DNA of 35,620 nucleotides, taken from assembly GCA_016928095.1 (NCBI GenBank), contig JAFGLL010000021.1:1-35620 (forward strand), read 5' to 3'. Position numbers and translations under genes: made by a program. The notes beneath the pieces are model-generated. The model ran no database searches, had not been told where the DNA came from, and saw only the letters and a program-made list of their open reading frames with translations. Source of the DNA: Thermoplasmatota archaeon (GTDB lineage Archaea > Thermoplasmatota > Penumbrarchaeia > Penumbrarchaeales > Penumbrarchaeaceae). Positions 2,253 to 17,932 of this stretch are shown here, piece by piece (the stretch's first letter is position 1; every line of letters starts with the position of its first letter).

Positions 2253-2528
2253 CTTCTTCACCAATGATTATTATTCTCTTTTTTACTCTCCCGTCCAATA
2301 GCGAAAACGTCTTTATCCTCCAGCCGCCATGTCCAATTTACTCTTTCACGAACCTCCTTTTCATATCGAAAAGGAATGGGAGATAGAAGAACCTTGCTCC
2401 TTGATGACAGGAAAAGACCGATGAAAGTTCATTGGATCCGCCCCTTCATATTCGTTCAGGGGGAAGTATCCGTAATATTGACCGTTTCATTTCGTACATG
2501 GAGCGTCCTTTAACGGCCCCCCTAAAGA

Positions 2529-3257
2529 TCAAGAAGTGAACGGGAAGACGAACTCGGCATCGAGGCCCCATGCCTCAACCGTGACGTTCCTCCCCCACAG
2601 TCCAAGAGCCAGCAGGGTCGTTGTGGGCATCTCCACCTTTCCATGACCCACACCGTCGCTCGTGAGTTCCAGGTGCCGAAGATCGATCTTCCCTTCGCTG
2701 ACACCGTTGGAGATCGTCGCCTCAGTGTTGCTGGCGAAGATGTTCACCTCTCGCTCCATCTCCGCCGTGAGATCGAAATCCACGACGGTTATCAGGGGAA
2801 ACCTCGTCGACAGTGTCACGTTCTCTATCTCTATCCCGCTCAGAACCTCCCCGAGGAACGACAGGTCGACCATTGTATCTATCTTCTTTTCATGACGTGT
2901 TCCGATCATCGACCTGTACGAGACGGTACCGTGGACCGATATCTCCTCCTCCCGGACTATCTCAGCGAACTGCTCCTCGTCGAGAATGGCGAAAACGGTC
3001 CCGTTCACTGTTCCGAGAGGGATGTCCCCCCCTTCCAATCTCACCCATAGCGGCCCCGCCTCCACTTCCAGGTCCGGATCGTAGCAGAATTCTGCCGATA
3101 CGTTGCATTCATCATCCTCTATGTATATGGTGACGGCCCCGACATCGACGGAAACACCACGCGGCATGAAGACCACAAGAACGATCGCAAGAGCTGTTAA
3201 GAGCATCAGCGCCGATGCGATGGCAATAATGATGACCGCCCCTCTCTTCCTATCCAG
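2529..3257 (-). CDS. Anchored extracytoplasmic beta-rich protein
   Basis: A basic stretch (DRKRG) is followed by one long TM segment (AVIIIAIASALMLLTALAIV) and about 210 residues of alternating hydrophobic and polar beta-strand character, exported by prediction. The strand pattern resembles LEA14/WHy-type domains, but I cannot confirm that. The start is uncertain. The frame runs open into the preceding dehydrogenase gene, and no ATG, GTG or TTG lies near the junction. A CTG at 3257 is preceded by GGGGGG with good spacing; an ATG at 3206 would cut into the TM segment, and an ATG at 3347 would overlap the dehydrogenase by 98 bp. The gene is probably translationally coupled to the dehydrogenase. 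Confidence 0.6.
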   Translation of the reverse strand: MDRKRGAVIIIAIASALMLLTALAIVLVVFMPRGVSVDVGAVTIYIEDDECNVSAEFCYDPDLEVEAGPLWVRLEGGDIPLGTVNGTVFAILDEEQFAEIVREEEISVHGTVSYRSMIGTRHEKKIDTMVDLSFLGEVLSGIEIENVTLSTRFPLITVVDFDLTAEMEREVNIFASNTEATISNGVSEGKIDLRHLELTSDGVGHGKVEMPTTTLLALGLWGRNVTVEAWGLDAEFVFPFTS

Positions 3258-4074
3258 CTCGATCCCCCCGCTCGTGGTCTTTCGATGACCCTTTGACCTT
3301 GCCGTCGAGAACCTTTCTGACGATTGGACCTGCGAACCTGTTGGCATGATAGGTGGCTCTCGATGATGCATCCGGGAAAACAAGGAACTCTCCCGAGATG
3401 ATGGCGCCGATCACCGCTCTTGCGACCTTTTCAGGCTGGATGGTTCTGATGGTATTCGAGATGGCTTTCAGCTCCTCGGGTTTGGAGAGTTCCTCGTCCC
3501 TCAGCTGAGGTGTTTCCGTATCGGGAGGGAACACGATGGAAACTCCGATCCCTTTCGTGTTCAGCTCCATCCTGAGGGCTTCCGAGAATCCCCTGACGCC
3601 GAACTTTGCTGCGCTGTATGCGGTGTATCCGTAGAGGCCGATGATACCCGCCATAGAGGATATGTTGACGATATGCCCAGGTGGCCTCATCATGGGAGAG
3701 AAGGTCTTGCAGACGTATATGGTCCCCTTCAGGTCGATATCAATTATGGTATCTATCTGTTCCATCGTCAGCTCGGAGAGGATTCCCGGATAAACAATTC
3801 CCGCGGAATTGACCAAGATGTTCGGAACACCGTGATCACCAAAGATCCTCTTCGAGACCCCGGAGACGGCTTCCTTATCGGAAACATCCGCAACGTATGT
3901 ACCTATAACACCATCGATACCCGAAGCGGCATTCAGGAGTTTCTCTTGGTCCCTTGCTAAAAGTATTACCCGGCATCCCCTGGAAGTGAGCATCCTGGCC
4001 GTGGCAAGCCCGATACCGCTGGACCCTCCGGTTATCAGGGCAAGACTCTCGCCGAGGTCCTTCAGGTATACCAT
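3250..4074 (-). CDS. Short-chain dehydrogenase/reductase, 3-ketodihydrosphingosine reductase-like
   Basis: An NAD(P)-binding Rossmann enzyme of the classical SDR family, 274 residues. The dinucleotide motif TGGSSGIG is at residues 15-22, NSAG at 89-92, the catalytic Ser at 139/140, and Tyr153/Lys157 in AYSAAKFG. The segment VFPPDTETP (181-189) matches the PPDTxTP signature of 3-ketodihydrosphingosine reductases (KDSR/Tsc10), so a keto-lipid or long-chain substrate is likelier than a sugar. The Asn of the usual catalytic tetrad appears to be Asp114 (IDIDLKG). A TATA box lies about 26 bp upstream of the ATG, although GAGG also occurs before it. It lies downstream of the heliorhodopsin gene on the same strand but has its own promoter. 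Confidence 0.85.
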   Translation of the reverse strand: MVYLKDLGESLALITGGSSGIGLATARMLTSRGCRVILLARDQEKLLNAASGIDGVIGTYVADVSDKEAVSGVSKRIFGDHGVPNILVNSAGIVYPGILSELTMEQIDTIIDIDLKGTIYVCKTFSPMMRPPGHIVNISSMAGIIGLYGYTAYSAAKFGVRGFSEALRMELNTKGIGVSIVFPPDTETPQLRDEELSKPEELKAISNTIRTIQPEKVARAVIGAIISGEFLVFPDASSRATYHANRFAGPIVRKVLDGKVKGSSKDHERGDRAG

Positions 4075-4096
4075 GTTTCCTCAACTCTGGATTCCA

Positions 4097-4104
4097 TATA
4101 AAAA
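4097..4104 (-). promoter_or_regulatory. TATA box of the SDR gene
   Basis: The minus-strand sequence TTTTTATA is centred about 26 bp upstream of the SDR ATG (4074). That spacing would place the transcription start at or next to the start codon, as in several other genes of this window. Confidence 0.5.
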
Positions 4105-4202
4105 TATGATTGGTAAAAGAGACCAAATTCAGATCCCCTGGATGCCATGGTGGACAGATGAAGGAACCTTCCTATATGGACCATTTCCGCTCGAGCGTCT
4201 CA

Positions 4203-4976
4203 TCATCCGGGTCTAAGGGTCCCTGCGAACACCTGCCAAGCGAGAAGTGATTTCGCGACCAGGCTCAGAACTATATACATCGTTTCACCGAAGAGATAAT
4301 TTTTCCATTTCCAGACCTTCTTGTACTGGAGGACCATGTTGATGGCGAAACAGTTGAAGAAGACTGCGATCGAAATGTAGATGTAATAGACGAACGTCGG
4401 AGGTCCTCCGTCGCCCCCTCCCGCCCCGAAAAGGTGGAAGGCGATGGCAATCCACGGTATCAGACCCGCTATGCATCCGTAGATGAACGGAGCCCAGTCA
4501 AGCTCTTTCCTTCCCTGGTTGTGGACCTCCATTCGGAGACCGAATAATATCATCATCATGTTCATGAAGAAGATGAGTATGAGCGTTCCGATGTCATATA
4601 TACCTGTCAACATGGCAATGGCGACGATCATGACGGATGCGCTGATCGAATATTCATACCATCGGAACCGGTTCAGTCCCTTCTTCAGATCGTTCACATA
4701 CCTGTTAAAGAGCCCGGTCCCTATCAACAAGTGGGCGATCGACGACATGAAAAGGAACGAGGCAATGAACGGACCTAAGCGAATATCCATCACATGTGCC
4801 GATGCAGGAAAGAGCTTTTCAAGGGCCGGGTCGTAGTCGAGGAACCCTCTTGTCACCCCGATTGTCAGGTCGCTGCTTATCAAGACCATGACGAGCCCCT
4901 GAAGGAAGTGCAGGACCGCCATGACGAGGTTGAATATCCTAAGCCTGCGAAATACACCCGTTTCTTCATTTTCCAT
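4203..4976 (-). CDS. Heliorhodopsin (retinal-binding photoreceptor)
   Basis: A 257-residue, seven-TM protein with heliorhodopsin signatures. RFRWYEYSISASVM (103-116) carries the Schiff-base counterion Glu108, and LVAKSLLAWQVFAGTL (239-254) carries the retinal-binding lysine Lys242. His23 and His82 match the two conserved heliorhodopsin histidines. The family's N terminus is cytoplasmic, opposite to type-1 rhodopsins; the first helix here is preceded by acidic and then basic residues (MENEETGVFRRLR). Heliorhodopsins have slow photocycles and are regarded as sensors or regulators, not pumps. A GGGGGT motif precedes the ATG. No carotenoid oxygenase or opsin partner gene is in the window, so the source of retinal is unknown. 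Neighbours are an M28 peptidase upstream and an SDR downstream. Confidence 0.95.
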   Translation of the reverse strand: MENEETGVFRRLRIFNLVMAVLHFLQGLVMVLISSDLTIGVTRGFLDYDPALEKLFPASAHVMDIRLGPFIASFLFMSSIAHLLIGTGLFNRYVNDLKKGLNRFRWYEYSISASVMIVAIAMLTGIYDIGTLILIFFMNMMMILFGLRMEVHNQGRKELDWAPFIYGCIAGLIPWIAIAFHLFGAGGGDGGPPTFVYYIYISIAVFFNCFAINMVLQYKKVWKWKNYLFGETMYIVLSLVAKSLLAWQVFAGTLRPG

Positions 4977-5039
4977 CGGAATACCCCCGTAGATAATGGG
5001 ACTCAGTGTAATAATAATTCACTTTGATCCCGGAACGCA

Positions 5040-6440
5040 TCAGCTTGCGGTCATCAGTGCATAGCTCCCCAGGATCCTTCCACCGATCTGCAAAGACTCA
5101 GGGTTCAGGTTGGTGAGATCGTCCTTGTAAGTATGATATTCAATACACCCGGACCCCCACCCCCCCATCGCATGATGTCCACCGTTAACGAAAGGCCAGT
5201 GGTCGGAAGCTGCCCATCTCATGTCGTCGTATACGACACTTATCTCATATCTGGACAGGGTCGGATCCTTCCTGAGCAGCTTATCTCTGATATCCTCAAG
5301 GACAGGTATTGTCGAGTTCCGGGTGGTCGTTACCGTGAAACTGTTCGTATCGGGGTCCACATGGGCCATGTCGAAGTTGATATAGAGGTCGACGGTATCC
5401 TGGAACTCCGCTCGGTGAGCTTTGTAATATTCGATGGACCCGTAAAGACCCTCCTCCTCCCCCCCGAAAGTAGCGAACCTGATGGTGCTTTTCGGGGTCC
5501 TCCCGTTCATTCCCCTAGCGATCTCTATCAACGTGGCAGGACCCACGGTATTATCGACCGCACCAATAGTATTGTAACAGGTATCATGATGCGCCCCGAA
5601 CACTATCATTCCGTCATCGCTCTTCCCCTTGAGGTCCCCCACCACTACCCTGCAGTCCATATTGCCTGTTCTGACCTCTATGTCCATCCTGAGTTTGAAG
5701 CTCCCGGATGTTCTCTGGAGGATCTCGTCCCCGCAGTCCTTCGAGACCATCATGAAGGGGATGTCCCTTGCTGCCTGTTCCGGTTCGTGGTATTGACTTG
5801 TCTTGAACATGGGAAGGTAGCCTATCTCCTCCCCTCTCATGAGGTTCTGAAGTATTATCGCACTGGCTCCTGCGGAAAAGGCGTTCTCGTAGACCACCAC
5901 GTTGCCGGGGGTGTCCACGGTCTGTTCTATGAAACATACCATACCCCTACTACGTGAATATGAACCCGGGTCCGTCCCGTTCCCTATATCGACGACCTCG
6001 AGGTCCCCCCTGAAATCGCTGGAAGCGAGGGATCCCGAGTAGCCCTGGATGACGAACTCCTCCATATGGGTGAATTGGACGGTCTGCCCGAACGGTCTCG
6101 GGACATTCTTCAGGGGGTAATATTCAACTAGGGAGAGTTCGGCCGTTACCACCTCGAACATGGGGACCTGAAAGGTCTCTATATGGACATCCTGAAGGCC
6201 CGCATCCTCGAACTGCCTTGATATGTAATCCGCACCGAGGCTTTCGGCCTCGGACCCTGTCATCCGCGGCCCCCACTGGACAAGGTTCCTCACATGTTCT
6301 CCCGCCATCTCGTGGTCGAAACCTATGAGGAGGATCCCCTCATCGTTCCCGATCAGGGAGTTGACGGAGATGACGACGGTGGTGACCAGCAGGATGGCTG
6401 TCACCACGGCCGGGATGCCGAACATCAGTCTCCTGTCCAT
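5040..6440 (-). CDS. Membrane-anchored M28 family metallopeptidase with PA domain
   Basis: A zinc aminopeptidase of peptidase family M28, 466 residues. Residues about 6-27 form an N-terminal signal anchor. A protease-associated (PA) insert spans roughly 130-240 (ending near PFMMVSKDCG). The catalytic domain runs from about 265 to the end. The expected di-zinc ligands and catalytic acid are visible: His284 (GAHHDT), Asp296 (AVDN), Glu328/Glu329 (GGEEEGLYGS), Asp357 (INFDMAH) and His436 (EYHTYKDD). It should act outside the membrane on N termini of peptides. A TATA box lies 25-26 bp upstream of the ATG and there is no ribosome binding site, so the mRNA is probably leaderless. It diverges from the superoxide reductase gene. 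Confidence 0.92.
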   Translation of the reverse strand: MDRRLMFGIPAVVTAILLVTTVVISVNSLIGNDEGILLIGFDHEMAGEHVRNLVQWGPRMTGSEAESLGADYISRQFEDAGLQDVHIETFQVPMFEVVTAELSLVEYYPLKNVPRPFGQTVQFTHMEEFVIQGYSGSLASSDFRGDLEVVDIGNGTDPGSYSRSRGMVCFIEQTVDTPGNVVVYENAFSAGASAIILQNLMRGEEIGYLPMFKTSQYHEPEQAARDIPFMMVSKDCGDEILQRTSGSFKLRMDIEVRTGNMDCRVVVGDLKGKSDDGMIVFGAHHDTCYNTIGAVDNTVGPATLIEIARGMNGRTPKSTIRFATFGGEEEGLYGSIEYYKAHRAEFQDTVDLYINFDMAHVDPDTNSFTVTTTRNSTIPVLEDIRDKLLRKDPTLSRYEISVVYDDMRWAASDHWPFVNGGHHAMGGWGSGCIEYHTYKDDLTNLNPESLQIGGRILGSYALMTAS

Positions 6441-6461
6441 GGGCCTTTATCATGTTCTATC

Positions 6462-6469
6462 TTAATAAA
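6462..6469 (-). promoter_or_regulatory. TATA box of the M28 peptidase gene
   Basis: TTTATTAA on the minus strand is centred 25-26 bp upstream of the peptidase ATG at 6440, consistent with leaderless transcription. Confidence 0.5.
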
Positions 6470-6582
6470 TGATACAGTGTCCCTTTGACAGCATCGGAAG
6501 GTTAACATATCAGGAGCTCGGGTTATCAATGACCTGTTCTTTTCCAGATCATGTCAATGGACCGGTCTCGAAGGTGAATAAC

Positions 6583-6930
6583 ATGAAGATCTGCGAAGTA
6601 TACAAGACAGCTGAGAGCGAAGGAAAGGAAAAGCACGTCCCCCAGATGGAGATAATGAGGGGTCAGGGAAAGGGTGGAAAGGATATTGTGAGGGTAGTGG
6701 TAGGTAAAGAGGTACCTCATCCCAACCTTGTGGAGCACCACATCGTTTGGGCGCAATTGGTGGGCGTCAAGCAGAACGGAATGGTCATAGAACTTGGCAA
6801 GGTGAACTTTACCCCGGTGTATACAGACCCCGTGGCCGATTTCCACGTGAACCTGTCGGACCTCAGATCACTGATCGCGACGGAATACTGCAATATCCAC
6901 GGTCTGTGGGAGAATTCCGTGGACCTCTAA
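6583..6930 (+). CDS. sor: Superoxide reductase (neelaredoxin type, single-domain)
   Basis: A 115-residue protein matching class II superoxide reductase, which reduces superoxide to peroxide at a square-pyramidal Fe(His)4Cys centre without releasing O2. Iron ligands are visible in order: His18 in EKHVP, His46 in PHPN, His52 or His53 in VEHHIVW, then Cys103 and His106 in CNIHGLW. Glu16 and Lys17 next to the first His correspond to the active-site lid residues. The N-terminal desulforedoxin domain of class I enzymes is absent. The ATG at 6583 is preceded by AAGGTGA with five-base spacing; the longer frame upstream (from 6469) is unlikely to be translated. This suggests an anaerobic or microaerophilic cell exposed to oxygen. 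The next gene on the other strand converges, with 33 bp between stops. Confidence 0.93.
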   Translation: MKICEVYKTAESEGKEKHVPQMEIMRGQGKGGKDIVRVVVGKEVPHPNLVEHHIVWAQLVGVKQNGMVIELGKVNFTPVYTDPVADFHVNLSDLRSLIATEYCNIHGLWENSVDL

Positions 6931-6963
6931 CCGGTCCACGTTCCGAATTGGATACCACTCCAT

Positions 6964-9900
6964 TCAGTTATCTCTGTACCTCTGGTCCCAGGTCATAACA
7001 GCTATCGATATTGTCAGCATAGAAACGATCAAAGTGCCGACGACGGCTGCGGCCACGTACCATCCGTTGTCATCCTCCTCTTTCTCGATCGATGCCGGTT
7101 CATTTTCCAAAGCTTCATCCTCGGCCCTGGCGATCTCCTTCAATTCGATATCGATCATCTCAGAGGTGCCGAACTCGTCCCAGATCATTATCTGGATGGG
7201 TTGAACTACCTTTGAAGGATGTTCTGCTAAGAGGTGCAGGGTTGCATTATCACATGCTGTGCCCTGCTTGATATATACCCCAGGGATGCTGTTCACTTGG
7301 ATGTAGTTGATATTGGAAAGCGATCTGTTGTCACGCTTGACCGTGATGAAAATGTCGGTTTGGGGTTTCAACCGGTCGCCGCCTCTTACAATAACATAAG
7401 AAGCCTCGAGACCGGTGGGTGTCTGAACCACCGTGGCAGGATCCTCAACGACGCTCAACCATGCATGGACGGAACCGACCGGGTTTGCCTCCATGTAAAC
7501 ACGGATGGAGAGGGTCACAGGTCCGGGAGCCAAGGGTGCAATATAATCAATTACCATGAGCGACCCCATCAATATCCTGAAGTTCGAGAAGGTACCTTTT
7601 TCATCATCATCGCACACCACCCTTAGGTCATCCGATCGGTCCGTACCCGAAAACGGGATGAAAAGCAGAGCCTGTTCTCCCGGACCGACGACAGCGGGGA
7701 ATACCTGGGGGTCCCCGAGGAGGATCTCCTCGTTCTCCTTTTCGATCATGGGGGCTATGATGTCAATGGACCACACCAGTCGTTTGATGAGCTCATCGTT
7801 GTATCTCACCTCGAGAAGCAGACTGGATATATCCACCTCACGTACAGGGATGAAGGATCCGATGTACCTGTTCTCATATGTTTTCATAGGCTGCGAAACG
7901 ATCCCGCACAGGCTGAGGTCGAACAGTTTCAGGGAGAGGAGCAAGGGGTCATGAGTGCCGGTGATGTCCACCTGCACTAGTACCGGATCGTTGAGCTCCA
8001 CGCTTCTCTTGCTGATGCTGGGGTATACATTAATGGACACGATCTCTTCAATGATGTTCGGTCCTCTAAGCACGGTGATGGTTTTCCTTGCTTCCGAAAA
8101 AGGCATATCGTCTATAATGACCCTTGCCGTGATCGTCGCCTCTCCGGTGTAGGTGCCAGGGGCCTTCCATTCGAACGAGTACAGACCTGGAAGGACCTCT
8201 TTAAGCTTCATGAACGTGCCTATAGCCGGGTCGCTTGAGAGCCTGATGTTGTCCAACCTTGCAGGAACGGAGTCGTCCCTGGCCTTGAGGAAGAACCTGA
8301 CGGTGCCGTCGGAGTAGACCTCGTCGCTGTCAGCTTCGAGCATCAACCTTGTTTCTATGCTCCTTGAATATAAACGGTACCCTTCTCGGTAAAGTATTCT
8401 CCCTTCGGCTCCGGAAACGATGGCCCCGCATTGGTACCCGATCCAGGTGTCAACAGGTATGAAATACTCGCATCTCTGGGTGTACCCGTTTATGAAGGCA
8501 TCGCCCTTGTATTCGTTGTATCCGTAATAGGAATAGGTCAGATTGTATGTCGATGTTATGATATCGATGCAACCATCATTGTTGATATCCTTCATGGACC
8601 GCAGGACCTCTCCGGATAGGGGGAACCTCTTCTCCGATCTTAGGAGGCATGTGTTGCTTCTAAGGTCGTAAAGGGTAATATGATATCTCTCATTGAGGCA
8701 GATCTTCGGTCCATCGGTCTGACCGGATCCCAGAATTCCCATGATCTTGCCCTCGGAAGTGAAGAGCAGGCTGCCGTTCATGCCGTCAAGAACGATGGTG
8801 GACAACTTGCTGGGCTCCCTGTTGCCCCGGTAGACCTGATCGTTGCCCGGTATCGAGGCCACGATCTCCTCGAACCCGTCCCCGTTGATATCTATGAAAG
8901 AGCATGTGTAATAGTCGGTCCCGGCTGGCAATCCTTTGCCTTCTCCGACCAGTGCGGTCCATATTATGGAATGGTCCGATATGGAGACCTTGCTGATGTT
9001 GAGGTTTGGGTACTGGTAAGAGATCAATAAGCCGTTGAAGCGGCCCGGGGCACCCGTGTCAAAATACTCCCCGAGCATCCTTTTTGTGGTCGCATATGCG
9101 TATCTTATCTCACCCGTGGAGGTGTTCCTGTACTCGTAGTAGCCGTTCTCCCTGAAACGAAGTAGCTCCTCTGACATGAACGTCACGGGAACTCCTTCGA
9201 CCGCATCCACTGACCAGAGAGTTTTTATCTCACCATGCCAGGGGTCGATGATAAAGGTCTTTCCCTCCTCGGTGTCCTGAAGGAGTATCATTTCGGCTTC
9301 CGATGTCCTTATCTTCGAAATCGAGCCGTACTTGAGGGAGCTGGAATAGGATGAGGTGTTCCAGCTGCTGCCTGTTTTGAGGGAAAGTATGTGGAATTCT
9401 GTCCTAGTATGGATCACGAAAAGTGTCTGGTAATATCCTGTCAGTGGGAAGAAACCCTCAACATAGGATTCTGTTGGGATGTTTCTGGACCATAGAATGT
9501 CCCCGTTCTCGTGTGAGAGACGGGAAATGTAAAGGTCGGAGTCTGTCCTGTTGTAGATCTGATCTACCAGAACGATCTCCGGAGATCCGTCCCCGTTCAT
9601 ATCATCGAACTCAATGTTGCGGTGGCAGTATAGGTCCTCATCCAATTTCAGGTGCTCCAGAGGCCTTGTGGTCCACAACACCTCACCGCGGGATTCATCA
9701 ACAAGACGCAGCTCATCGCTGCCGATCTGGAAATACCTTTCAAGATCGATCAATTTTCCGTCATCCCATCCCTCATCACCAACATATCGGATGATGGTGT
9801 TTGCAGAAGTGCACCAGGATACTCCCGGTAATGTAGGGATAAGAAAGTCCCCTTTCAGTTCCGAGAGCCTCGTGTAGATCTCGAAATACTGGCCTATGCA

Positions 9901-10740
9901 TCTGCCTTCGAACAGCTCGTCAAGGGAGGGATCGATCTCAAGGACATCCGAGCGGTCCAGGATACCTTCCCCCCTCTTCCATTGTTGGTCCGTCATCCCA
10001 GAAAGGTCGATGGGGTGGTCCTCCGGCGTGATCAATGCAAGCTTGATGCTGGTGTCGCCTTTGAGAATGGAGGAGACCTCGAGAGGGAATACGAGTTCGT
10101 CCGTCCTGAAATCATAGACCAGAGGTTCGACCGATCCGGGTTCATTGCCTATCTGGAACCTGTCTATCGCGAAATATGAGAAACCTTTGTTGCAGTACCC
10201 GACAAGAACATCCTCCAGACCTTGAGGCCAGTTCTCGATGCTCGAACCCACCTGCTCCATCAGCTCTCCGATCTGATCGTAGAAATCATCGGGAGAGATG
10301 ATCTGTATCACGGTTATGCTGTGGCTTCCGAGCTTTGCAGTGAACTTGATCTCGAAACTATCCACATCTCCGCCTCCTCCGCTTTGACCACCGCCATTTC
10401 CGTAGTTGGCATAGCTGTTGAAATCAAGTTCCCGGAGGAAGACCTCCTTCATCCTCTCGAATGTCTCGAAATCCCCGAGAGATACCTTCGGGAGCGATGG
10501 GAAGGGGACGAAATGTATCCCTTCCGTGGGCTCCTCCGCGTAGATGTTGATGGAGAGGTACATCCTCTCCTTTTCCCCGTTCCAGCAGACAATGGCATTC
10601 TGCCCCGGCTCGTAGACGTTGATGTCCATCACGGGGACGAAACCACCGTCTCCCTGCACGAATACTGCAAAGAGGACGGGAAAAATGATCATTGTTCCAA
10701 ACAAGATGACAAGGTGTTTCCTCTTTCCTGGGCAGTCCAT
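6964..10740 (-). CDS. Giant anchored surface protein with FG-GAP/VCBS-type repeats
   Basis: A 1258-residue exported protein. It has a signal peptide (KRKHLVILFGTMIIFPVLFA), a long ectodomain, a Lys/Glu-rich linker and one C-terminal TM helix (about 1227-1250) with a short basic tail. At least three calcium-loop repeats of the FG-GAP/VCBS beta-propeller type are visible: FDDMNGDGSPEIVLVD (about 380), FIDINGDGFEEIVASI (about 620) and MKDINNDGCIDIITST (about 720). Segments with PQQ-like character (ENGDILW, DESRGEVLWTT) support a propeller. From about 800 to the linker are Ig-like beta domains. It probably binds a ligand at the cell surface or is an S-layer-associated adhesin; the ligand cannot be read from sequence. 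An ATTTAATA box lies about 43 bp upstream of the ATG. Confidence 0.85.
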   Translation of the reverse strand: MDCPGKRKHLVILFGTMIIFPVLFAVFVQGDGGFVPVMDINVYEPGQNAIVCWNGEKERMYLSINIYAEEPTEGIHFVPFPSLPKVSLGDFETFERMKEVFLRELDFNSYANYGNGGGQSGGGGDVDSFEIKFTAKLGSHSITVIQIISPDDFYDQIGELMEQVGSSIENWPQGLEDVLVGYCNKGFSYFAIDRFQIGNEPGSVEPLVYDFRTDELVFPLEVSSILKGDTSIKLALITPEDHPIDLSGMTDQQWKRGEGILDRSDVLEIDPSLDELFEGRCIGQYFEIYTRLSELKGDFLIPTLPGVSWCTSANTIIRYVGDEGWDDGKLIDLERYFQIGSDELRLVDESRGEVLWTTRPLEHLKLDEDLYCHRNIEFDDMNGDGSPEIVLVDQIYNRTDSDLYISRLSHENGDILWSRNIPTESYVEGFFPLTGYYQTLFVIHTRTEFHILSLKTGSSWNTSSYSSSLKYGSISKIRTSEAEMILLQDTEEGKTFIIDPWHGEIKTLWSVDAVEGVPVTFMSEELLRFRENGYYEYRNTSTGEIRYAYATTKRMLGEYFDTGAPGRFNGLLISYQYPNLNISKVSISDHSIIWTALVGEGKGLPAGTDYYTCSFIDINGDGFEEIVASIPGNDQVYRGNREPSKLSTIVLDGMNGSLLFTSEGKIMGILGSGQTDGPKICLNERYHITLYDLRSNTCLLRSEKRFPLSGEVLRSMKDINNDGCIDIITSTYNLTYSYYGYNEYKGDAFINGYTQRCEYFIPVDTWIGYQCGAIVSGAEGRILYREGYRLYSRSIETRLMLEADSDEVYSDGTVRFFLKARDDSVPARLDNIRLSSDPAIGTFMKLKEVLPGLYSFEWKAPGTYTGEATITARVIIDDMPFSEARKTITVLRGPNIIEEIVSINVYPSISKRSVELNDPVLVQVDITGTHDPLLLSLKLFDLSLCGIVSQPMKTYENRYIGSFIPVREVDISSLLLEVRYNDELIKRLVWSIDIIAPMIEKENEEILLGDPQVFPAVVGPGEQALLFIPFSGTDRSDDLRVVCDDDEKGTFSNFRILMGSLMVIDYIAPLAPGPVTLSIRVYMEANPVGSVHAWLSVVEDPATVVQTPTGLEASYVIVRGGDRLKPQTDIFITVKRDNRSLSNINYIQVNSIPGVYIKQGTACDNATLHLLAEHPSKVVQPIQIMIWDEFGTSEMIDIELKEIARAEDEALENEPASIEKEEDDNGWYVAAAVVGTLIVSMLTISIAVMTWDQRYRDN

Positions 10741-15667: not shown

Positions 15668-17932
15668 TCAGTCCCTTCTCTTCCGGGGAGGCCCCCTTCT
15701 CTGGTCCGGGCCATCCCTTCTCTGTGGTCTCCTCGGAGGTCCGGAGCGTTTCTGGTCCCTTCTACCGGACGGTTCCATCCCCGGGGGTCGAGGTGTCAGG
15801 GCCTTCAATGAGACCTCTACCTTGCCCCGGTCTATCTCGATCACCTTGACACGGATCCTGTCGCCTACCTGGACGCGGTCGGTCACCTTTTCCACATGAC
15901 CCCATTCCAGTTCTGAGACGTGTAATAGTCCGTCCGTCTTCGGGGTCAATCTGACGAAAGCGCCGAAGGGCATGATCTTCACGACCTCCGCATCCTCGAA
16001 GATATCTCCGACCTCTATGTCACGGACGATGCTCTTGATGATGGCCTCGACCTGTTTGGCCTTGTCGGCATTGGTGGAGGTGACCATCACTGTCCCGTCA
16101 TCCTCCACATCTATCTGGACATCATAGTCCTCGCAGAGCGCCCGGATAACCTTTCCGCCGGGTCCAATGACCTCCCCGATCTTTTCCGGATTGATGCTGA
16201 GGGCTATTATCCTGGGTGCATACTCGGAGATCTCCTTTTTTGGTTCCGGGATAACAAACTTGATGAATGCTATTATCTCCGATATGGCCTTCCTCATCTG
16301 GGGGAAGGTGTCCTTGATGATATCCATTGTCAGACCGGATGTCTTGGTATCCATCTGGACAGCCGTTATTCCATCCTCGGTTGATGTGAACTTGAAGTCC
16401 ATCCCACCTTTACCGTCCTCAAGGTCTTGAAGGTCCGTCAGGACCTTGTAGCGTTTGCCATCGGATGCAAGACCCATTGCGATGCCTGCAACCGGTTTCT
16501 TGATCGGCACACCGGCATCCATCAGGGCAAGCGTTGATCCGACCGTGGAACCCATGGAAGAGGAGCCGTTCGACCCCATGACCTCGGATACGACCCTTAT
16601 GGTGTACGGGAACTCCTCGATCCTTGGGAGTACGGGCAGGAGAGCTTTCTCCGCCAGTGCACCGTGGCCGATCTCCCTTCTTCCTGCACCCCTCAATGGT
16701 TTGACCTCACCCACGGAAAATGGCATGAAATTGTAATGATGGAAGTACTTCTTCGAATCGTCCGTTTCCATGGATTCTATGATAAGATCATCACCGGGGG
16801 CACCCAATGTCACGAAGCTGAGTATCTGTGTCTCTCCTCTGGAGAAGAGGGCAGACCCGTGGGACCTGGGTACTATGCTTGTCTCTCCGGTCAGTTTCCT
16901 GATCTCGTCCATCCTTCTTCCGTCAACCCTCTTGCCCTCGTCGAGTATGGCAAGAGTGACCTGATCCTCGATGAAGTCGAAGAAGAAATCCGACATGAGC
17001 TTTCTGAGATAGCTCTCGGTCTCATCCTCGGACCTGTCCTTGGTCTTGAGCTTCTTCTTGAACTCCTCTATGATCTTCTCCTCGAGCTCGGCGATGACCG
17101 CTTTCCTCTCCCCCTTGGACCCCACCGGTTTGTTGAAGAGGTAGCTGTCCAGTTCGGGCAGGGCCTTCTTCTTGATCTTATCGATGACCTTCTGGTCCTC
17201 ATCGGTTCCCGATATCCTCCATTTGAGCTCTTCGGGACCCTTCTTGGGTTTTCCGATCTTTTCGCGGACCTCCTTCATGAAATTCGTGATGGGACCCATA
17301 GCCTTCATGGCCTCTTCGAACGTCTTCAGAGCATTCTCGTCGTCCAGCTCCCTGGCATCGCAGTCCACCATGGTTATCCTCTTTCCATCCCCCATCACCA
17401 CCATGTTGATCTCCGAGAACTCTATCTCATCGACAGTGGGGTTGATGACGAACTCGCCGCCCACCATTGCGACACGGCAACCGGTTATGGGCCCGTCGAA
17501 CGGAACGCCTGATATTTCGAGAGCCGTGGTGGCGGCTATCATTCCCACGATGTCCGGTTTGACCTCGCCATCGAGGCTGAGGGGCATTATTATAACCTGC
17601 ACCTCGTTCCTCAGTCCTTCCGGGAAAAGGGGCCGGATACCGCGGTCTATCATCCTTCCGATGAGGACCGCTTCAGTGGAAGGTCTTCCCTCTCTTTTAA
17701 GGAACCTCGGTCCCTTGATCTTGCCCACAGCGGAGTATCTCTCCTCGTAATCGACCATCAATGGAAAGAAATCCATCCCTTCCCTGGCATAATTGGAAAT
17801 GCATACGGTCGCAAGGACCATGGTATCCCCGATCCTGGCCGTTACCGATGCATCCGCCTGGTGGCCCATCCGGCCATATTCGATTATCAATCTTTTACCT
17901 GAGTAGTCCGTTTCGAACCTCTCTATCGTCAT
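15668..17932 (-). CDS. pnp: Polyribonucleotide nucleotidyltransferase (PNPase)
   Basis: A 754-residue 3'-5' phosphorolytic exoribonuclease with the complete bacterial architecture. It has RNase PH domain 1 (about 10-140, with REGRPSTEAVLIGRMIDRGI), an all-alpha linker (about 230-310), and catalytic RNase PH domain 2 (about 325-545, with GSALFSRGETQ, SNGSSSMGSTVGSTLALMDA and the GGMDFK aspartate and lysine near 511-513). A KH domain with GPGG is near 590, an S1 domain spans about 640-710, and the Arg/Pro-rich tail is about 40 residues. PNPase degrades RNA with phosphate or adds tails. Archaea usually do this with the Rrp41/Rrp42 exosome, so a full PNPase is unusual. AAGGTGA precedes the ATG and a TATA-like TTTTATTT (17990-17997) lies upstream, both archaeal-looking signals. 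Confidence 0.96.
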   Translation of the reverse strand: MTIERFETDYSGKRLIIEYGRMGHQADASVTARIGDTMVLATVCISNYAREGMDFFPLMVDYEERYSAVGKIKGPRFLKREGRPSTEAVLIGRMIDRGIRPLFPEGLRNEVQVIIMPLSLDGEVKPDIVGMIAATTALEISGVPFDGPITGCRVAMVGGEFVINPTVDEIEFSEINMVVMGDGKRITMVDCDARELDDENALKTFEEAMKAMGPITNFMKEVREKIGKPKKGPEELKWRISGTDEDQKVIDKIKKKALPELDSYLFNKPVGSKGERKAVIAELEEKIIEEFKKKLKTKDRSEDETESYLRKLMSDFFFDFIEDQVTLAILDEGKRVDGRRMDEIRKLTGETSIVPRSHGSALFSRGETQILSFVTLGAPGDDLIIESMETDDSKKYFHHYNFMPFSVGEVKPLRGAGRREIGHGALAEKALLPVLPRIEEFPYTIRVVSEVMGSNGSSSMGSTVGSTLALMDAGVPIKKPVAGIAMGLASDGKRYKVLTDLQDLEDGKGGMDFKFTSTEDGITAVQMDTKTSGLTMDIIKDTFPQMRKAISEIIAFIKFVIPEPKKEISEYAPRIIALSINPEKIGEVIGPGGKVIRALCEDYDVQIDVEDDGTVMVTSTNADKAKQVEAIIKSIVRDIEVGDIFEDAEVVKIMPFGAFVRLTPKTDGLLHVSELEWGHVEKVTDRVQVGDRIRVKVIEIDRGKVEVSLKALTPRPPGMEPSGRRDQKRSGPPRRPQRRDGPDQRRGPPRKRRD

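Follow-up and report, generated by a model that had tools for sequence, protein, structure and literature searches.

A heliorhodopsin from a little-sampled class of Thermoplasmatota: family membership, gene neighbourhood and carotenoid gene content

The presence of heliorhodopsins (HeRs) in Thermoplasmatota is already known, and one HeR of solved structure, TaHeR (Thermoplasmatales archaeon SG8-52-1; PDB 6is6, 7u55, 7clj), comes from the same phylum as the protein described here. In TaHeR the hydrophobic residues Tyr109, Ala113, Met116, Phe203 and Phe206 block the passage of ions (PMC9529153), and a signalling path formed by His23, Gln26 and Trp243 has been proposed (PMC9385722). The Znf-HeRs of Thermoplasmatales, which lie beside carotenoid genes (Bulzu et al. 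2021, PMC8612252), belong to the same phylum and protein family. Lycopene cyclase, CrtI and CrtB occur in their genomes as well as in the genome considered below. Among bacterial proteins, the actinobacterial 48C12 heliorhodopsin (PDB 6su3, 6uh3) has the same fold and diagnostic residues.

The gene studied here lies in a 35,620-nucleotide stretch of DNA, analysed whole and called the window, which is part of a 2.8 Mb assembly of 124 contigs (G000; 95.9% complete). The heliorhodopsin gene, whose reading frame runs exactly from an ATG at 4976 to a stop at 4203, and the surrounding block comprise the following features.

2529..3383, minus strand: p284, a signal-anchored protein of unknown family (no Pfam match)
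3250..4074, minus strand: classical SDR (PF00106, 2.6e-45), downstream of HeR
4075..4202, minus strand: HeR-SDR spacer, 128 bp
4203..4976, minus strand: heliorhodopsin, 257 aa, seven transmembrane helices (PF18761, NF038020, match to 6is6, AlphaFold model)
4977..5039, minus strand: M28-HeR spacer, 63 bp
5040..6440, minus strand: M28 peptidase held in the membrane by an N-terminal hydrophobic anchor (PF04389, 5.7e-31), upstream of HeR
6574..6930, plus strand: one-iron superoxide reductase, SOR (PF01880, 5.5e-22; SOR 4bff, 1.9e-21), with the start taken at 6574 within a longer open reading frame beginning at 6469

The reading that we prefer, to which we give a probability of roughly 85%, is that an ordinary HeR lies in a pre-existing gene block, that its closeness to SOR reflects positional history, and that its retinal comes from outside or through an enzyme that is neither Blh nor RPE65.

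Membership of the family is established. The protein scores 330.9 bits (E=5e-99; cut-off 26.7) in a Pfam profile search with PF18761 and 340.3 bits (cut-off 100) against the NCBIfam equivalog NF038020 'HeR', and among solved structures its closest match in sequence is TaHeR 6is6 (E=3e-82, residues 2-256). An AlphaFold model built from 25 HeR sequences (mean pLDDT 89.6) superposes on 6is6 with a TM score of 0.94 and 1.5 Å, compared with 0.88 for 48C12 and about 0.6 for the best type 1 rhodopsins. The gene is thus confirmed as a genuine full-length heliorhodopsin, as the first-pass annotation had proposed without giving its strand, and the comparison with known heliorhodopsin structures that it had recommended returns the HeR fold. 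Helix 1 starts near residue 2, and no N-terminal zinc ribbon, MORN repeats or extra domain was found in the protein, which therefore belongs to neither the Znf-HeR nor the MORN-HeR subtype. It is a fresh member of an established family, ordinary and well formed, from a little-sampled archaeal class.

The diagnostic residues are likewise in place. Glu108, Lys242, His23 and His82, all of which the annotation had named, are found at these numbers, together with Gln26, Ser78, Ser238 and Trp247. Ser238 and Lys242 form the SxxxK motif of helix 7, Glu108 supplies the helix-3 glutamate counterion, and His23 and His82 correspond to the His23/His80-82 pair of the family. In an alignment of 70 HeRs, His82 and Glu108 occur in every sequence, and His23, Ser238 and Lys242 in 68, the other two having gaps; the helix-7 lysine, on which the annotation had made its assignment depend, is present as Lys242, so that the identity as a HeR stands. 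The Schiff-base, counterion, histidine and Gln/Trp residues are all shared with TaHeR, the signalling path being kept as His23/Gln26/Trp247 and the ion-blocking residues as Tyr109, Ala113, Met116, Phe207 and Phe210. However, identity to TaHeR over the structural alignment is 52%, so about half of the residues differ, and the window protein has a glycine-rich loop preceding helix 6 (GAGGGDGGPP) that is four residues longer. To 48C12 it is 43% identical over the structural alignment.

Lysine plus arginine counts of 5, 2 and 4 in the inner loops, against 3, 0, 0 and 1 outside, predict that the N terminus is inside. From these features and from the described relatives we infer the topology in the cell, the photochemistry and the signalling of the protein. 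It would be a retinal-binding, seven-helix protein with a cytoplasmic N terminus, in which light would isomerise the retinal held on Lys242, with Glu108 as counterion. A slow photocycle would follow, without ion pumping, and the conformational change would be relayed via His23, Gln26 and Trp247 to a putative partner protein. Five residues are unusual by comparison with most HeRs, namely Ser79 (usually Ala), Met140 (Ala), Ile143 (Asn), Trp222 (Gly) and Phe229 (Tyr). All five are shared with the nearest relative, L003, and Ser79, Met140 and Ile143 also with a HeR from Dojkabacteria; these positions may tune colour or kinetics.

HeR occurs in two of the 12 genomes of the class to which the window species belongs, G000 and G006, and matches were found in 48 of 390 Thermoplasmatota genomes, 43 of them strong (E about 1e-50 or better). 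L003, the HeR of G006 (Candidatus Thermoplasmatota archaeon M17C-73-04), is 70% identical to the window protein; in the tree the two are sisters (100/96) within a clade of Thermoplasmatota HeRs. Elsewhere in the phylum, family f31 contains tandem pairs of HeR genes (G191:C29:126792-128448 and G065:C4:95004-96741). A partial match to the HeR profile (62 bits, positions 78-207) lies inside a 449-codon open frame at G314:C59:45932-46360, in a genome of family f18, whose other members carry Blh.

To follow the block through the class, window positions 2500-7500 were used in a DNA search, and protein searches were run on the retrieved loci. M28 orthologues (56-74%) are present in five relatives, G003-G007, without an adjacent HeR. 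SDR orthologues adjoin M28 in G003, G004 and G007, and p284 homologues (23-26%) follow SDR in the same three genomes and in G006. In G003 and G004 the order is M28-SDR-p284 with a gap of 60 bp between M28 and SDR; in G007, which is 95% complete and has no HeR, it is ABC transporter-M28-SDR-p284 with a gap of 116 bp. In the window the corresponding spacer measures 965 bp and contains HeR. An SOR orthologue lies beside M28 in G006 and beside an ABC permease in G002. A single contig of G006 (C47) carries polynucleotide phosphorylase, ABC, SOR, M28, SDR and p284 in this order, and its HeR lies on a separate contig (C25). Since SOR-M28-SDR occurs without HeR in relatives, the comparison indicates that HeR sits inside a pre-existing block in the window.

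Some further genes around these loci may be described here. Archaea usually use the exosome instead of polynucleotide phosphorylase. The window encodes a full-length, bacterial-type polynucleotide phosphorylase (15668-17932, minus strand; TIGR03591, 821 bits, cut-off 525) with two RNase PH domains, KH and S1, and G006 has a homologue (64%) at this block. In the window, SOR is separated from the ABC permease by a gene for a 1258-aa surface protein (6964-10740, minus strand), which has FG-GAP repeats and a weak DUF2330 domain; neither the G006 nor the G007 block was found to contain it. In G006 the space between M28 and SDR is occupied by another gene, a minus-strand open reading frame of 489 aa; this opposite-strand gene (L132:8024-9493) resembles a radical-SAM activating enzyme by a CxxxCxxC-like motif. 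The M28-SDR spacer may therefore have received genes on more than one occasion. On C25, at a locus different from that of the window, HeR is flanked by genes for a P-type cation ATPase and for DNA alkylation repair (PF08713). The start of the repair gene overlaps the HeR stop codon, preceding its end by 3 bp (L003:8001-9478), and the two genes are probably translationally coupled.

The arrangement is most simply explained, judging from gene order, by insertion of HeR between M28 and SDR in the lineage of the window. Alternatively, as regards the history of the locus only, HeR could have been ancestral at this site, with losses in G003, G004 and G007 and a move in G006. The sister relationship of the window and G006 proteins within a Thermoplasmatota clade means that HeR could date back to the family's ancestor, but this history would require at least two clean losses without remnants plus one relocation, the 60-116 bp between M28 and SDR in G003, G004 and G007 are too short to hold a HeR remnant, and an insertion in a single lineage is simpler; we consider the ancestral placement unlikely. 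A foreign origin of HeR was looked for by composition and set aside: its GC3 of 0.67 does not stand out from that of the neighbouring genes (0.64-0.69), and its composition hence bears no mark of recent arrival.

With insertion into a standing block as the favoured history, the question arises whether HeR has acquired a functional partner there. HeR, M28 and SDR lie on the same strand with short spacers, so that their co-transcription is possible in the window species, and HeR could act on the product of the adjacent SDR gene (and on M28) as a co-transcribed partner. HeR and SDR are 128 bp apart, and SDRs are among the ten neighbour classes frequent in HeR operons according to a 2024 survey (PMC11109279). 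However, SDRs are a very common family, SDR adjoins M28 in relatives that have no HeR, and a TATA-like TTTTTATA 30 bp upstream of the SDR ATG suggests, from its sequence and position, that SDR has its own promoter and is transcribed separately. No TATA-like motif was found in the 63 bp M28-HeR spacer. We also compared 20 archaeal HeR loci over about 9 kb on either side, less at contig ends. SDRs occur near HeR in three of them, only as distant proteins (23-33% identical) at no fixed position. A specific tie between HeR and SDR is accordingly not favoured, and we regard the partnership as improbable. More generally, no partner gene conserved across the HeR loci was found; neighbours differ by lineage, and those that recur are lineage-specific, as in the Alkalibacterium-type and f31 loci. 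A role of the window SDR as retinol dehydrogenase was considered separately and dropped for want of support: the solved structures nearest to it are those of acyl-carrier-protein reductases, alcohol dehydrogenases and a hydroxyacyl-CoA dehydrogenase, and it is not close to the SDRs that lie near other archaeal HeRs.

The first-pass annotation had correctly listed an anchored peptidase, a downstream SDR and an SOR at 1.6 kb, all of which were recovered, and from the last of these it had drawn a tentative link to oxidative stress, in line with a general proposal of Bulzu et al. 2021. That HeR switches oxidative-stress defence by light together with the nearby SOR, perhaps also M28, is very unlikely: about 1.6 kb separate the starts of SOR and HeR, and in other phyla glutaredoxin, peroxidase and catalase are over-represented around HeR (PMC8612252), but SOR is divergent from M28 and cannot share a transcript with HeR because it lies on the opposite strand, the same family contains SOR-M28-SDR without HeR and HeR without the block, no SOR or M28 homologue was found within about 9 kb of HeR in any of the 20 archaeal loci, and no paper in the literature collection searched names heliorhodopsin and superoxide reductase together. 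Synteny of HeR, SDR, M28 and sor, to which the annotation had pointed as a check, is thus not conserved across relatives, and the genes do not form a HeR-antioxidant operon. The proposed link is not supported, and gene order points instead to positional history, with no dedicated oxidative-stress circuit. The window locus by itself says little about HeR function.

The carotenoid gene content of G000 bears on the source of the chromophore. Differently from the Znf-HeRs, the window HeR lacks an N-terminal zinc ribbon, and the carotenoid genes of its genome lie on another contig, C49, in the following arrangement.

4500-5858: class II photolyase (phr2 model, 494 bits, a little under the cut-off of 550)
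5860-6570: fused lycopene cyclase
6698-8179: phytoene desaturase CrtID (CrtI; 695 bits, cut-off 640)
8172-8999: squalene/phytoene synthase (CrtB), for which 'phytoene' rests on the neighbouring genes because the protein falls under every NCBIfam equivalog cut-off
9047-9667: CruF-like stretch

Genome-wide family searches of this 95.9% complete assembly found neither Blh nor an RPE65-type oxygenase, and G000 is therefore not classed as an autonomous retinal producer; given the 124 contigs and the degree of completeness, such a gene could fall into one of the gaps of the assembly. The annotation had seen no retinal-forming oxygenase, which holds for the entire genome as regards Blh and RPE65, and the search for carotenoid and retinal genes that it had suggested thus uncovered a carotenoid cluster and neither oxygenase. 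Its suggestion that the chromophore is scavenged is possible but is only one option: since the cluster includes a lycopene cyclase, an endogenous route to retinal is also worth testing. Uptake of retinal is documented for rhodopsin bearers without blh, and HeR has been reported to bind added retinal fast (PMC9296517). The retinal would come from outside the cell, or from an endogenous carotenoid via an enzyme that belongs to neither the Blh nor the RPE65 family.

For some HeRs, Blh has been described among the neighbouring genes (PMC9385722). Among the 390 Thermoplasmatota genomes it was found in none of the 43 with a strong HeR, an overlap that is not statistically unusual (p=0.38), given the rarity of Blh and its restriction to a single family; the search does work in the phylum, where 14 genomes, all from family f18, score above the cut-off. 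Within the class, lycopene cyclase is present in both HeR genomes and in none of the ten others (p=0.015, kinship ignored). Across the phylum, HeR is carried by 8 of the 13 genomes that have both cyclase domains vs 35 of the 377 that do not (p=1e-5, kinship again ignored). Most genomes with both domains belong to family f17, in several members of which HeR lies beside carotenoid genes. Three f17 HeRs, L110, L088 and L087 (in G219, G050 and G171), carry a CxxC-type N-terminal extension; genes for CrtB, CrtI and lycopene cyclase are found a few kb away from the first two, and a broken CrtB a few kb away from L087, an association already reported for Znf-HeRs. Neither Blh nor RPE65 was found in these three genomes. 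That HeR-bearing Thermoplasmatota which make cyclic carotenoids without Blh or RPE65 homologues might cleave carotenoid to retinal by an unrecognised enzyme is a tentative idea that we hold to be unlikely.

For the family, the occurrence of the same block with and without HeR inside one archaeal family removes a tempting functional clue, that of a tie between HeR and SOR. The mismatch between 43 strong HeR genomes without Blh and the cyclic carotenoid synthesis that some of them encode is a useful result in its own right. It sharpens the question into a directly testable one, namely whether archaeal HeRs obtain their retinal from outside or via an unknown enzyme.
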